Below, one piece after another: positions 9,594 through 46,995 of a stretch of DNA of 61,117 nucleotides. The notes beneath the pieces were generated by a model. It was not told the DNA's origin, did no database searches, and worked only from the letters and a program-made list of their open reading frames with translations. Location of the stretch: positions 1-61,117 of the forward strand of contig JANXSK010000101.1 in assembly GCA_025352695.1 (NCBI GenBank), in the 5' to 3' direction. The stretch's first letter is position 1; each line of letters starts with the position of its first letter. The position numbers and the translations under genes are program-made. Source of the DNA: Ferruginibacter sp. (GTDB taxonomy: Bacteria; Bacteroidota; Bacteroidia; Chitinophagales; Chitinophagaceae).

Positions 9594-11882
9594 ATGAAAT
9601 TATTTAAAAAAGTGCTGATCGGGTTAATGGTATTTACCTCGTTACAGGCAGCAGGTCAAAGTTCCGATCCTGCTAAAATGAAAGGTTTTATTGATGTACT
9701 GATGAAGAAGATGACGTTGGATGAAAAATTGGGCCAGTTAAATTTACCTGGCGCCGGCGATATTGTTACGGGACAGGCATCCAATTCTGACATTGGAAAA
9801 AAAATACGGGAAGGAAAAGTGGGTGGGCTTTTCAATATTAAATCTGTTGCAAAAATTAAAGCAGTACAAAAAGTAGCGGTAGAAGAAAGTCGCCTAAAAA
9901 TTCCGATGATATTTGGGATGGATGTTATTCACGGGTACCAAACAACCTTCCCAATTCCTTTGGGAATGTCTTGTATTTGGGATATGAACCTGGTAGAAAA
10001 AGCTGCCCGTATTGCAGCGCAGGAAGCCAGTGCAGATGGAATTTGCTGGACCTTTAGCCCGATGGTAGACATTAGCCGTGATCCCCGCTGGGGAAGAATT
10101 TCGGAAGGAAATGGGGAAGATGCCTTTCTTGGATCAAGGATAGCCGAAGCGATGGTAAAGGGATACCAGGGCAACGATCTTTCAAAAAATAATACGATTA
10201 TGGCTTGTGTAAAACACTATGCTATGTATGGCGCTGCAGAGGGCGGACGAGATTATAATACGACTGATATGAGCCGCATCAGAATGTACAATGAATACCT
10301 GCCACCTTACAAAGCTGCGGTTGATGCTGGTGCAGGAAGTATAATGGCATCTTTTAATGAAGTAGACGGCATACCTGCCTCAGCCAATAAATTTTTAATG
10401 ACAGATGTGTTACGCACACAATGGGGTTTTAAAGGATTTGTTGTAACAGATTATACTGGTATTAATGAAATGATAGATCACGGTATGGGCGACCTTCAAA
10501 AAGTTTCTTCACTTGCACTAAATGCAGGCGTAGACATGGATATGGTAGGGGAAGGATTTTTAACCACATTGCAAAAATCATTGACAGAAAAAAAAGTTAC
10601 ACTTCAGCAAATTGATGTTGCCTGCCGCCTTGTGTTGGAAGCAAAATATAAACTTGGCTTGTTTGAAAATCCCTATAAATATTGTGATGAGCAAAGATCA
10701 AAAACAGAAATATTTACACCTGCCAACAGGAAAGCAGCAAGAGCAATTGCGGCAGAAAGTTTTGTGTTATTAAAAAATAATAATAACCTGTTACCCATAA
10801 AAAAAACAGGCACAATTGCATTGATTGGCCCATTGGCCGATGCAAAAGAAAACATGTCTGGAACATGGAGTGTGGCAACAGATATGTCTACCCCGGTATC
10901 TGTTTTGCAAGGATTAAAAAATGCTTTGGGTAGCAATGCAAATGTATTGTATGCAAAGGGATCAAACCTGGATGCAGATAGCTTGCTTGAGGAGCATGCT
11001 ACGATGTTTGGCAAAACATTGCATAGAGATAAAAGATCGAATGAAGTTATTCTTAAAGAGGCATTGGATGTAGCGGCACAATCAGATGTTATAGTTGCCG
11101 CATTGGGCGAATCTGCCGAAATGAGTGGTGAAGCAGCTAGCCGTTCCGATATTAGTATTCCAAAAATTCAACAGGAATTAATGGAGGCGTTATTAAAAAC
11201 AGGCAAGCCCGTAGTACTGGTTTTATTTACTGGACGACCGTTGACATTGAAATGGGAAAATGATCATGTGCCAGCAATTTTAAATGTGTGGTTTAGTGGT
11301 ACAGAGGCAGGTGATGCAATTGCTGATGTATTATTTGGAGATATAAATCCTTCTGGAAAATTGAGTACTACTTTTCCACAAAATGTTGGACAAATACCGT
11401 TGTATTATAACCATAAAAATACAGGGCGCCCCTTACCTGAAGGAAAATGGTTTCAAAAATTTCGTTCAAATTATTTAGATGTTTCCAATGATCCATTGTA
11501 TCCTTTTGGGTATGGATTAAGTTACACCAATTTTAGCTACAGTGTTATTTCTTTAAGCAGCAATATTATTAAGGGTAATCAAACAATTAAGGCTACTGTT
11601 ACACTTACAAATACGGGTACAGTAAGTGGTAAGGAAGTAGTGCAATTATATACCCGTCAACTTGTTGGCACAACTACACACCCGGTAAAAGAATTGAAAG
11701 GATTTCAGAAAATTGAACTTAAAGCGGGTGAGTCAAAAATAGTTACTTTTAATATTTCGGCACAAGACCTTAAATTTTATAATAGCGATCTTAAATATGT
11801 TTCAGAGCCTGGTAATTTTAAATTATTTATTGGAGGAAACAGCAGAGATGTAAAAGATGCCGCTTTTAAGTTGGTGTTGTAG
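9594..11882 (+). CDS. bglX: GH3 family beta-glucosidase (BglX-like), periplasmic
   Basis: A 762-residue full-length GH3 enzyme with a signal peptide ending around LQAAGQ (residue 22). The order is the usual one: a TIM barrel with FGMDVIHGYQTTFPIPLG, ACVKHYAMYGA and the nucleophile Asp in FVVTDYTGI; an alpha/beta sandwich with GESAEMSGEAASRSD; and a C-terminal FN3-like domain (GKEVVQLYTRQ). It should release glucose from the non-reducing end of short beta-glucans. Next to a GH144-type glucanase, sophorose or other beta-1,2-linked oligosaccharides are plausible substrates, but this is inference. A long hairpin at 11965-12004 lies downstream. Confidence 0.9.
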   Translation: MKLFKKVLIGLMVFTSLQAAGQSSDPAKMKGFIDVLMKKMTLDEKLGQLNLPGAGDIVTGQASNSDIGKKIREGKVGGLFNIKSVAKIKAVQKVAVEESRLKIPMIFGMDVIHGYQTTFPIPLGMSCIWDMNLVEKAARIAAQEASADGICWTFSPMVDISRDPRWGRISEGNGEDAFLGSRIAEAMVKGYQGNDLSKNNTIMACVKHYAMYGAAEGGRDYNTTDMSRIRMYNEYLPPYKAAVDAGAGSIMASFNEVDGIPASANKFLMTDVLRTQWGFKGFVVTDYTGINEMIDHGMGDLQKVSSLALNAGVDMDMVGEGFLTTLQKSLTEKKVTLQQIDVACRLVLEAKYKLGLFENPYKYCDEQRSKTEIFTPANRKAARAIAAESFVLLKNNNNLLPIKKTGTIALIGPLADAKENMSGTWSVATDMSTPVSVLQGLKNALGSNANVLYAKGSNLDADSLLEEHATMFGKTLHRDKRSNEVILKEALDVAAQSDVIVAALGESAEMSGEAASRSDISIPKIQQELMEALLKTGKPVVLVLFTGRPLTLKWENDHVPAILNVWFSGTEAGDAIADVLFGDINPSGKLSTTFPQNVGQIPLYYNHKNTGRPLPEGKWFQKFRSNYLDVSNDPLYPFGYGLSYTNFSYSVISLSSNIIKGNQTIKATVTLTNTGTVSGKEVVQLYTRQLVGTTTHPVKELKGFQKIELKAGESKIVTFNISAQDLKFYNSDLKYVSEPGNFKLFIGGNSRDVKDAAFKLVL

Positions 11883-44116: not shown

Positions 44117-44136
44117 AACCTGCCTGCAGGCAGGTT
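44117..44136. repeat. Perfect 20-bp extragenic palindrome
   Basis: AACCTGCCTGCAGGCAGGTT is a perfect palindrome in the gene-free region before metG. The core CCTGCCTGCAGGCAGG is, from memory, a recurrent palindrome in Bacteroidota; copy number in this genome could not be checked. Confidence 0.7.
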
Positions 44137-44352: not shown

Positions 44353-46995
44353 ATGACAGATCCAAAAAGATATTTAATTACTTCTGCATTGCCTTATGCC
44401 AACGGGCCTAAACACATTGGGCATTTGGCAGGAGCTTATTTGCCGGCAGATATTTATGTGCGTTATTTAAGGGCGCAAAAAAAGGATGTAGTGTATGTAT
44501 GTGGCAGTGACGAACATGGGGCTGCTATTACCATTCAGGCGATGAAGGAAGGCACCACGCCACGAGAAATTGTAGACAAGTACCACGCCATGCTAAAAAG
44601 CAATATGGCCGATTTGGGTATTTCGTTTGACATTTATCATCGTACTTCTGCACCCATTCATCATGAAACTGCACAGGAATTTTTCACTGCATTAAATGAC
44701 AAAGGCGATCTGGAAGTAAAAGATACCGAGCAATATTTTGACGAAGAGGCCAACACCTTTTTAGCCGATCGTTACATTGTGGGCACTTGTCCGGTTTGTG
44801 GTAATGAAAATGCTTTTGGTGATCAGTGTGAAAAATGCGGCACTTCTTTAAGCCCTGAAGAACTGATCAACCCGAGGAGTACTTTAAGCGGTAATGCACC
44901 TATAAAAAAAGCTACCAAACATTGGTATTTGCCTTTAAACAGGCATGAAGAATTTTTACGCAAATGGATTCTGGAAGATCATAAAAATGATTGGAAAGCG
45001 AATGTTTTGGGGCAATGTAAAAGTTGGCTGGATGCAGGTTTGCAGCCAAGAGCTGTAACACGTGATCTAGATTGGGGAATTAAAGTACCCAGCCCTCTCG
45101 CCCCCCAAGGGGGGATCTTAGAACCAGAGAATTCGGATGAGCCTTTTGATTATCAAACAGCCGACCCTATTGTTTATGGGCTGCTAAAGGAATTTGTAAG
45201 CAAACATAGAAGCAGTCCTACCGAGGCTGAAAATATTTTATGGCAAATTTTAACGGGTAAAAAATTAGATGGCTATAAATTCAGACGTCAGCATATTATT
45301 GGAAATTTTATTGCACATTTCGTCTGTCTTTCTCAAAAAGTAATAATAGAAGTTGATGGATTGATACATCAGTTAAAAGAAAATCAAATTAGTGATAGCG
45401 AAAGAACAATTGAATTAAATAAGTTTGGTTTTGATGTGATCAGATTTACCAATAATGAGGTAATAGGTGATACAGATAGTGTATTAAACAAGATACTTAA
45501 CAAATTATCGGAAAAGAGTTCAAAAGAATTATACACCAGGAACCCTCCTTTGGAGGGTAGGGAGGCTGTAGAAGCAGGGAAGGTATTGTATGTTTGGTTT
45601 GATGCACCCATAGGTTACATCAGCGCAACCAAACAGTGGGCATTGGACAATAACAAAGATTGGAAACCATACTGGTATAATGAAGATACCAAGCTGGTGC
45701 ATTTTATCGGCAAGGATAATATTGTTTTTCACGCCATTATTTTTCCGGTGATGTTGAAGTTGCATGGAAATGTGTTGCCGGATAATGTACCCAGTAATGA
45801 GTTTATGAATCTGGAAGGAGATAAGATGAGCACAAGCCGTGGATGGAGCATTGAGATGGATGATTACATCAACGATTTTGTAAAGAAAGAAAATGGTGGT
45901 GACCAGATGGTGGATGCGTTGCGCTATTATTTAAATGCCATTGCTCCTGAAACAAAAGACAGTGAGTTTACCTGGAAGGGATTTCAAGATACGGTGAAAG
46001 GTGAACTGGTGGATGTGTTTGGTAATTTTGTAAACAGGGCTTTTGTACTGATGCATAAATTATGCAAGGGCAAAGTACCGGCATTGCATGCGGATATCCT
46101 TGATGATGCAGACAGGAATATGTTTACTGAAATAGCTGCGGCAAAAGCCACCATTGAAAACTTAATAGAAGGATACAAATTTAGGGATGCACAGTATGAA
46201 GTTATTGACATGGCAAGAAAGGGCAATAAATATATGCAGGACAAGCAGCCATGGATAGTAGCGAAAACACTGGAATTAAATCCTGAAGGGCAAAAGTTAA
46301 TTGACAACTGTCTGCACATTTGTTTACAGCTTACTGCAAACCTGGCTGTTTTTATCAATCCATTTTTACCATTTGCAGCAAAGAAAATGTGCTATATGAT
46401 GAAGGTTGTAGATAAGATGCTGGACTGGCAAAATGCAGGCAAACCCAACTTGTTAAGTGTAGGCTATTCGTTGAGAGAACCGCAACTATTGTTCAGAAAA
46501 ATTGATGATACAGAAGTGGCTGAGCAAGTGGAAAAATTAAAAATTAAAAGCGAAAAAATAAAAATGGAAAATGAAAATAAGGAACCTACAGAACAGGGGA
46601 AGTCTTCGATAGCTGTGCAAGCAGCAGTAGGGTCGTTGAATAACTCCCCTTCAGGGGATGGGGGCAAACCCGAAATAAGTTTTGAAGATTTTGCAAAAAT
46701 AGATTTAAAAGTAGGGACCATTTTATCAGCAGAAAAAGTAGCAAAAGCTGATAAATTATTAAAATTAGAAGTTGACCTTGGCTTTGAAGTAAGAACCATC
46801 GTAAGTGGCATTGCATTACATTTTGAACCTGCAGCTATCGTGGGTAAACAAGTTACAGTGGTTACCAATCTTGCCCCAAGAAAAATGAGGGGTATTGAAA
46901 GTAATGGTATGATTCTGATGGCTGAAGATGCAGACGGTAAACTAAAATTTATAAATCCTGATGAAGTGGTTAAAAATGGAAGTGGCGTAAGTTAA
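44353..46995 (+). CDS. metG: Methionyl-tRNA synthetase interrupted in frame by a DUF559-bearing insert
   Basis: An 880-residue class I synthetase charging tRNA-Met, against about 690 in relatives. Catalytic parts: HIGH (21-24), the zinc knuckle CPVCG/CEKCG (146-162), WFDAPIGYISATKQW, and KMSTS (491-495). The anticodon domain and a C-terminal tRNA-binding domain (FEDFAKIDLKVGTIL) follow. Between GIKVP (to 246) and VEAGKVLYVW (from 406) lies a 159-residue insert with a DUF559 nuclease-like domain (about 276-386). A second unusual stretch, rich in Gly/Ser/Asn, is in the linker near residues 745-772. The frame is intact throughout. The insert has no intein splice motifs, so the host enzyme probably carries it as an extra domain. 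Confidence 0.95.
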   Translation: MTDPKRYLITSALPYANGPKHIGHLAGAYLPADIYVRYLRAQKKDVVYVCGSDEHGAAITIQAMKEGTTPREIVDKYHAMLKSNMADLGISFDIYHRTSAPIHHETAQEFFTALNDKGDLEVKDTEQYFDEEANTFLADRYIVGTCPVCGNENAFGDQCEKCGTSLSPEELINPRSTLSGNAPIKKATKHWYLPLNRHEEFLRKWILEDHKNDWKANVLGQCKSWLDAGLQPRAVTRDLDWGIKVPSPLAPQGGILEPENSDEPFDYQTADPIVYGLLKEFVSKHRSSPTEAENILWQILTGKKLDGYKFRRQHIIGNFIAHFVCLSQKVIIEVDGLIHQLKENQISDSERTIELNKFGFDVIRFTNNEVIGDTDSVLNKILNKLSEKSSKELYTRNPPLEGREAVEAGKVLYVWFDAPIGYISATKQWALDNNKDWKPYWYNEDTKLVHFIGKDNIVFHAIIFPVMLKLHGNVLPDNVPSNEFMNLEGDKMSTSRGWSIEMDDYINDFVKKENGGDQMVDALRYYLNAIAPETKDSEFTWKGFQDTVKGELVDVFGNFVNRAFVLMHKLCKGKVPALHADILDDADRNMFTEIAAAKATIENLIEGYKFRDAQYEVIDMARKGNKYMQDKQPWIVAKTLELNPEGQKLIDNCLHICLQLTANLAVFINPFLPFAAKKMCYMMKVVDKMLDWQNAGKPNLLSVGYSLREPQLLFRKIDDTEVAEQVEKLKIKSEKIKMENENKEPTEQGKSSIAVQAAVGSLNNSPSGDGGKPEISFEDFAKIDLKVGTILSAEKVAKADKLLKLEVDLGFEVRTIVSGIALHFEPAAIVGKQVTVVTNLAPRKMRGIESNGMILMAEDADGKLKFINPDEVVKNGSGVS
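45091..45567 (+). mobile_element. Frame-preserving palindrome-bounded DUF559 element inside metG
   Basis: This 477-bp segment (159 codons) encodes a DUF559 domain (TEAENILWQIL, YKFRRQHIIGNFI, VIIEVDGLIHQ, FDVIRFTNNEVI). Its left end, AGCCCTCTCGCCCCCC then AA and GGGGGG (45091-45114), and the reverse complement of its right end, AGCCTCCCTACCCTCC then AAA and GGAGGG (45543-45567), match at 10 of the first 16 positions, and all six differences are transitions. Each end is also an internal palindrome. Removal rejoins GIKVP to VEAGKVLYVW, the normal synthetase sequence. A GTA triplet flanks it on both sides (45085 and 45568), possibly a target duplication. Confidence 0.7.
46644..46665 (-). repeat. 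Solo copy of the metG palindrome family
   Basis: Read on the minus strand, GCCCCCATCCCCTGAAGGGG matches the ends of the DUF559 element (a GCC start, a pyrimidine-rich arm, then CCCC/GGGG around a short A-rich centre). It lies in the linker before the C-terminal tRNA-binding domain of MetRS and is translated as part of NNSPSGDGGK. The surrounding codons (about 46587-46672) look like added sequence, but exact borders cannot be fixed without relatives. Confidence 0.55.

Follow-up and report, generated by a model that had tools for sequence, protein, structure and literature searches.

The window analysed here, a 61,117-nt stretch of Ferruginibacter sp. DNA (contig JANXSK010000101.1), raises the question of how a nuclease domain came to lie in frame in the middle of metG, the gene for methionyl-tRNA synthetase (MetRS). 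The gene holds 159 extra codons with a DUF559 domain, between two inverted C-rich palindromes. The insert is likely a unit of mobile type and not a fixed domain of MetRS, because its site is empty in relatives, filled and empty alleles are interspersed, the domain resides in many unrelated hosts, and mini-elements without the nuclease occur. We consider it fairly probable that it belongs to a family of DUF559 elements with inverted C-rich palindromic ends, likely moved by cutting by their own nuclease and by host repair. The features concerned are as follows.

44353..46995, plus strand: metG, the host gene, MetRS of 880 amino acids (open reading frame, ORF, and Pfam)
45091..45567, plus strand: in-frame element AGCC...GGCT, 477 nt or 159 codons, missing from empty metG alleles
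45091..45114, plus strand: left end, pyrimidine block CCCTCTC and hairpin CCCCCC-AA-GGGGGG; the mirror block is decayed
45193..45507, plus strand: DUF559 (PF04480) nuclease domain (Pfam match and predicted fold)
45543..45567, minus strand: right end, read on that strand as mirror block CCTCCC, spacer TA and hairpin CCCTCC-AAA-GGAGGG; third block 6/6

The MetRS frame is open throughout, and Pfam assigned to it the MetRS families together with DUF559 at residues 282–385 (E-value 3.8e-31; 107.6 bits against a curated cut-off of 20.6). A scan of the window for C-rich hairpins placed the two ends at 45101–45114 (CCCCCC-AA-GGGGGG) and 45543–45557 (CCCTCC-TTT-GGAGGG on the forward strand), and returned two further hairpins, at 10082 and 46645. 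Empty metG alleles of relatives typically read VP-VEGAEG-KVLYVW and the window reads VP-(insert)-VEAG-KVLYVW, so joining of the flanks yields a near-normal MetRS loop. The extra codons, their DUF559 domain, the inverted palindromes and the restored loop had all been proposed by a first-pass annotation from the sequence alone, and each was confirmed. It had also called for a comparison with relatives, and in one search the metG site was empty in 24 of the 27 readable ones, so an insert shared by all relatives, one of its two refuting conditions, was not what the comparison gave.

DUF559 elements and their ends across genomes

The DUF559 system is real and widespread. Within the window's taxonomic family, DUF559 was detected in 156 of the 294 genomes surveyed, and the best-scoring listed places gave 153 domains after duplicates were dropped. 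With in-gene copies defined by an ORF with at least 170 amino acids of host sequence, or as the argB copy of the window's genome, 100 of the 153 were in frame in 16 host clusters and the remaining 53 were free, the frame count alone being no proof against splicing because in-frame copies were found through their long ORFs. The proposal that the ends are translatable and allow residence in coding genes agrees with this distribution. Hosts included leuS (two sites), metG, aroC, cinA, metH, argB, a mutase and adenine deaminase, among others. Pfam searches of 19 host ORFs named leucyl-tRNA synthetase, chorismate synthase, CinA, cobalamin-dependent methionine synthase, amino-acid kinase (argB), methylmalonyl-CoA mutase with MeaB, adenine deaminase, GcpE (GcpE/IspG), GHMP kinase, PriA, acetyl-CoA synthetase, M23 peptidase, nucleotidyl transferase, a type I restriction subunit, homocysteine S-methyltransferase and an Lhr-like helicase. 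In one genome (G052, locus L152) a single frame of 1380 amino acids joins a type I restriction subunit to DUF559 and a GIY-YIG nuclease domain.

A second set, comprising the best 80 of at least 558 loci in a named-genome collection (gene names assigned by eye), was entirely from Bacteroidota. In this set, 67 of the 80 domains lay inside host ORFs, such as methionine synthase of Flavobacterium frigidimaris, leuS of Gillisia mitskevichiae, and recG-like genes of Flavobacterium difficile and Aequorivita todarodis. On the domain tree of the family survey, copies did not cluster by genome (141 label changes in 153 rows) and followed the host site (29 changes against a shuffled mean of 93), with changes of host within two groups, one of aroC, leuS and the helicase, the other of metG, cinA, adenine deaminase and metH.

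Ends were scored as C-rich hairpins of at least 5 bp within 260 nt of the DUF559 domain. DUF559 frames elsewhere without palindromic ends, named beforehand as the case that would speak for an inherited domain, were not the rule in the survey: hairpins stood on both sides of 82 of the 100 in-gene copies and 29 of the 53 free copies. Per side, 87 left and 92 right flanks of the 100 in-gene copies carried one, against 101 of 2000 (about 5%) control 260-nt windows from the same loci. At least one copy of 13 Pfam-named hosts had both hairpins; thrB, priA and the nucleotidyl transferase, each represented by one copy, did not. Counts of hairpins in reverse orientation carry no information, because a palindrome is identical on both strands.

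The two ends of an element were more alike inverted than direct in 82/82 in-gene and 28/29 free pairs, with none of the opposite kind, and all 82 in-gene pairs form terminal inverted repeats of the sort that characterises insertion sequences and DNA transposons. End similarity was 0.432 within elements and 0.194 between elements, a difference reached by none of 5000 permutations, also when shuffling was restricted to elements at the same host site. The ends hence belong to the element and not to the site, because the match within an element exceeds even that between same-site elements.

Outside the hairpin, after two or three bases, a third block mirrors the 5′ arm, which amounts to a parallel-register pairing with the 3′ arm. 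For the 59 distinct arms of in-gene copies the mirror match was 0.782, compared with 0.687 for antiparallel pairing (the mirror was better in 32 arms and worse in 9) and 0.679 when arms were exchanged between ends, and the block was on the outer side in 53 arms versus 3. The second set, reduced to 77 elements (80 minus three exact overlaps), gave 0.844 against 0.722 antiparallel (29 for, 2 against) and 0.698 swapped. A mirror block would not be readable by a protein as the same site, and a third strand parallel to a purine strand would need precisely a mirror; from their sequence, the element ends could fold into a DNA triplex.

An exact end pattern with a spacer of two occurred at 14 places in 9 of the 294 genomes, 8 of these 9 with DUF559. 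It proved too strict and was replaced by a search for the hairpin alone. The type CCCCTCTCC-NNN-GGAGAGGGG was found in 33 of the 294 genomes (34 copies in G233), and the reversed pattern had no match there. DUF559 was present in 29 of these 33 genomes and in 127 of the 261 others. With hairpins of DUF559 elements left out, it was present in 20 of 24 genomes with solitary hairpins against 136 of 270 (p 0.002, hand-counted and ignoring kinship).

The nuclease appears to be maintained. Each of the predicted active-site columns E, D, E, D, H and D is kept in 99–100 of the 100 in-gene copies. The ratio of nonsynonymous to synonymous substitution rates (dN/dS) was 0.14–0.35 in 14 usable in-gene pairs, 160 of 925 prefiltered pairs having been computed, of which 15 had usable dS, most with dS above 1. 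Such conservation would be unlike a dead passenger and like a nuclease needed for its own spread or by its host. The domain is predicted to fold alone as a nuclease, with a putative Vsr/homing-endonuclease fold.

Probable mobility and residence at the host sites

In a metG tree built from 32 rows of host sequence alone, the seven filled alleles need six changes, at least five of them forced by well-supported branches, and the clustering of filled rows does not exceed that of shuffled labels. One filled allele (G128) has an empty one (G037) as its sister, their tip branches measuring 0.016 and 0.010. In tree tests on 37 filled MetRS proteins, with test groups chosen after quick trees, host data place protein P0087 together with the window's clade (support 98), a grouping rejected by the insert data (approximately unbiased test, p-AU 0.002); the union of P0020 with the same clade is rejected by host data (p-AU 0.004) and unrejected by insert data (p-AU 0.44). 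Two DUF559 domains in one protein were seen in 17 of the 120 homologues listed out of 890, and seven MetRS proteins have a second site with a 41–51-residue stretch that contains both end peptides and no DUF559 domain.

The proposed search for the end sequences succeeded at the DUF559 copies described above and yielded little in the window's own genome, where the right-end hairpin is present only once; in ten congeners the hairpin had 21 occurrences in five genomes. DUF559 stood at 2 of the 17 congener loci read, and three ORFs at these loci contain in-frame mini-elements of 101, 142 and 158 nt, each with two ends and no DUF559. Two of the congener loci (L368 and L369) have no third block. No mini-elements were found in the 11 readable of 20 MetRS with long open frames, whose extra length, where readable, was mostly upstream of the start codon.

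The inserts have diverged largely in step with their host genes, so the copies are long-term residents and not fresh jumps; recent invasion across genera was not seen at six host sites. The insert-to-host distance ratio falls from about 4–5 in close MetRS pairs to 1.9 in distant ones, which could be explained by lateral transfer or by saturation.

Mechanism, rival explanations and known repeats

In the mechanism that we favour, the DUF559 nuclease would recognise or cut its own folded ends, or the empty target, and host repair would then copy the element into the break. Homing-like repair would spread the element to the same site in other alleles and occasionally to a new gene. In essential genes only in-frame insertions in tolerant loops would survive, with the translated ends serving as flexible linkers and the nuclease persisting in the host protein as an additional folded domain; ends that occur singly or in pairs without a nuclease would be non-autonomous derivatives. 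The first-pass annotation had described a mobile unit moved by its nuclease. The mobile type of the unit is borne out by empty alleles, many hosts and mini-elements, and that the nuclease moves the ends we infer from their association, the conserved active site and the predicted fold.

Several observations weigh against this mechanism or its generality. Mobility is here read from sequences, and no movement or cleavage was observed. A recognised hairpin is missing on at least one side in 18 of the 100 in-gene and 24 of the 53 free copies, and in the free copies of the first set the mirror matches no better than antiparallel pairing (12 versus 9 on the left, 11 versus 13 on the right). Four of the 24 genomes with solitary hairpins (type A) have no DUF559 match. 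At metG the insert often stands in place of a few host codons, which most filled alleles lack there, and no target-site duplication is visible, as at the AGCC and GGCT junctions of the window's insert. The left end of the window's element has lost its mirror block and with it the triplex-repeat layout. No end was present at leuS site 1 in the 27 alleles without DUF559 whose borders were found, so the ends are not pre-existing landing pads, and that candidate explanation was rejected. At the amino-acid level, inserts were more identical than both host flanks in 0/21, 0/21, 0/6, 0/21, 1/351 and 0/15 pairs at the six host sites, counted over readable rows (unreadable: leuS2 3, IcmF 4, cinA 1, leuS1 1); these identities are as compatible with long-resident, co-inherited copies that are lost at times as they are with homing. 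Outside Bacteroidota, both-side ends occurred in only 3 of 14 loci.

That the ends spread by themselves, as triplex- or hairpin-forming repeats that break in replication and enter illegitimate recombination, with DUF559 as cargo kept for another use, is unlikely. TM repeats have been linked to instability in E. coli, with no mobility gene reported for them (PMC4666352), and the four DUF559-free genomes with solitary hairpins would fit such spreading; the excess of solitary hairpins in DUF559 genomes (kinship ignored), the end match that holds even against other same-site elements, and the conserved active-site columns with dN/dS well below 1 speak against it. Mobilisation of the palindromes by a Y1 transposase of the RAYT/IS200 type, with DUF559 riding along, is rather less probable still. 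Repetitive extragenic palindromic (REP) sequences, which are tagged hairpins, are thought to be mobilised by REP-associated tyrosine transposases (RAYTs), as stated in the accessible text of PMC3733652, and Y1_Tnp matches were found in 9 of 10 genomes tested, including that of the window. One genome rated 100% complete (G052), however, has no Y1_Tnp match and yet carries three DUF559 elements, two with hairpins on both sides, and the outer block mirrors the arm and is no GTAG or CGTC tag. The elements were retrieved through DUF559, so the comparison covers ends around DUF559 genes. The unit itself encodes DUF559, and both Y1 matches of the window's genome are on other contigs; one of them (C72, 2363–2719) has two in-frame TAG stops.

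About as improbable as the Y1 transposase, and already disfavoured by the results above, is a non-mobile accessory domain that MetRS and the other enzymes would have inherited and that would serve the host, for instance in DNA repair or defence. It would account for divergence that tracks the host, for purifying selection and for long-lived site-specific lineages; it is at odds with scattered presence and near-identical empty alleles, with many unrelated hosts and double copies in one protein, with an insert of another lineage in a close host, and with mini-elements and ends that match each other when inverted. Excision of the insert from the product, in the manner of an intein or intron, is very improbable, its one recommendation being the location in a conserved essential gene. 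Inteins end in Asn followed by Cys, Ser or Thr; here the frame is open throughout, the insert ends GREA before Val, so that the reported absence of intein motifs stands, and the domain is predicted to fold alone as a nuclease.

Repeats of similar build, the BoxC/PIT/TM repeats, have been known since the 1990s. Their three-block layout, in the available portion of Holder et al. 2015 (PMC4666352), matches that of the DUF559 ends in pyrimidine arm, purine arm, third block in triplex register and short loops. According to the same portion, the E. coli motif forms a triplex in vitro by circular dichroism and nuclear magnetic resonance, a stable triplex was not shown by in vivo footprinting, and the repeats are always intergenic in MG1655 with no mobility gene in their surroundings, whereas the DUF559 ends form the inverted termini of nuclease elements and are found in frame within genes. 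REP sequences and RAYTs likewise combine a nuclease gene near palindromes that bear a one-sided unpaired block, with solo and inverted-pair derivatives; they differ in having a Y1 transposase and hairpins tagged with GTAG or CGTC. In the DUF559 elements that tag is absent beside the palindrome, the outer block being a C-rich mirror of the arm; a DUF559 nuclease of putative Vsr fold stands in place of the Y1 transposase, and the elements reside in frame in essential genes. Rickettsia palindromic elements are translatable and insert in frame in unrelated genes, as the DUF559 elements do in 16 host clusters; they are about 150 bp with no nuclease named in the part of PMC10969869 at hand, against 477 nt with a nuclease in the window and 101–158 nt in the mini-elements. 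EDxHD homing endonucleases of the Vsr fold, such as I-Bth0305I, belong to group I introns in the available text of PMC3943268; those introns splice, and the DUF559 unit remains in the host protein and has palindromic ends. REP/RAYT pairs, Rickettsia elements and EDxHD endonucleases are by analogy the nearest counterparts for the parts, the translatability and the enzyme, respectively, and none fits as a family; the likeness to the first two suggested at the outset holds for these traits and not for membership. The statement that no such system had been described is upheld in that no paper joining DUF559 to such ends was found in the open-licence literature, subscription papers lying outside that scope, and has to be amended in that the ends follow the published BoxC/PIT/TM layout.

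More tentatively, and with somewhat less than even confidence, BoxC/PIT/TM repeats across bacteria, including E. coli, may be the ends and non-autonomous offspring of a class of DUF559 elements that would read triplex ends and home in frame into essential genes without being spliced. The published E. coli pattern has an exact match (L325:1998–2032) about 170 nt downstream of ycjD, the E. coli DUF559 gene, on one side only; ycjD is present in 3365 of 5426 E. coli genomes. No clean empty ycjD site was found in the three ycjD-less E. coli strains read, which have an efflux operon after sapF. The sapF–fabI interval of E. coli holds either ycjD or that operon after sapF (L328–L330 versus L332). In the sample outside Bacteroidota (14 loci read of 42 plasmid-collection records with DUF559), 11 of 28 flanks reached the triplex-motif threshold against 62 of 1187 windows. 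The both-side loci were one in Sphingomonas and two in Pseudanabaena, one of the latter inside a long ORF, and six of the 14 loci had no flank at threshold on either side. In Photobacterium (L320:1854–2976), an array of inverted C-rich hairpin pairs, many overlapping, adjoins a DUF559 gene.

To our knowledge there has been no explanation of how BoxC/PIT/TM repeats spread, and a linked nuclease, if true, would offer a testable one and give DUF559, a widespread family of unclear function, a role. Elements that remain translated and unspliced within essential enzymes, across more than 12 genes, would add to the ways in which selfish DNA shelters in coding sequence and would supply new protein domains. 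By covariation of sequence, the mirror-block rule connects a mobile element with a non-B DNA structure. For annotation, many Bacteroidota synthetases and metabolic enzymes hold an extra nuclease domain that is automatically annotated as a fusion.

The window copy and its surroundings

Two further features concern the present state of the locus.

45316..45318, plus strand: codon 322, CAT (His) at a conserved Asp position; probable active-site loss
46644..46667, minus strand: lone palindrome resembling an element end, lying in frame within the metG linker (NNSPSGDGGK); arm length 5 bp only

At the position of residue 322, Asp is present in 99 of the 100 in-gene copies and in all 53 free ones, and the close homologue P0004 keeps it; the window copy is probably inactive because this Asp is His. 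The copy is an old, probably inactive resident, and its right end retains the full BoxC/PIT/TM layout (hairpin with a stem of 6 or more and short loop, third block in triplex register, 6/6). A second DUF559 of the window's genome (L002/L151, contig C143) is fused in frame before argB, and DUF559 stands at the same argB place in eight other genomes. The linker palindrome is of the same type as the ends flanking DUF559 at argB and had no match in the triplex scan; the same linker bears other end-like peptides in homologous MetRS proteins.

The same metG loop holds in G047 (L169) a different in-frame insert, 27 residues built of GGTCAAC repeats, so the loop tolerates several kinds of insertion. 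The N-terminal part of the window's MetRS is 82% identical to that of other genera (G098, G104) and only 70–71% to that of the congeners G034 and G126, and these identities may reflect horizontal exchange of metG. Upstream of the gene, at 44119–44134, lies the perfect palindrome CCTGCCTGCAGGCAGG (0 expected in shuffles). By eye it represents another palindrome family, with no relation to the DUF559 ends, and the peptide LPTGQAG within MetRS P0001 may be the translation of a similar repeat.

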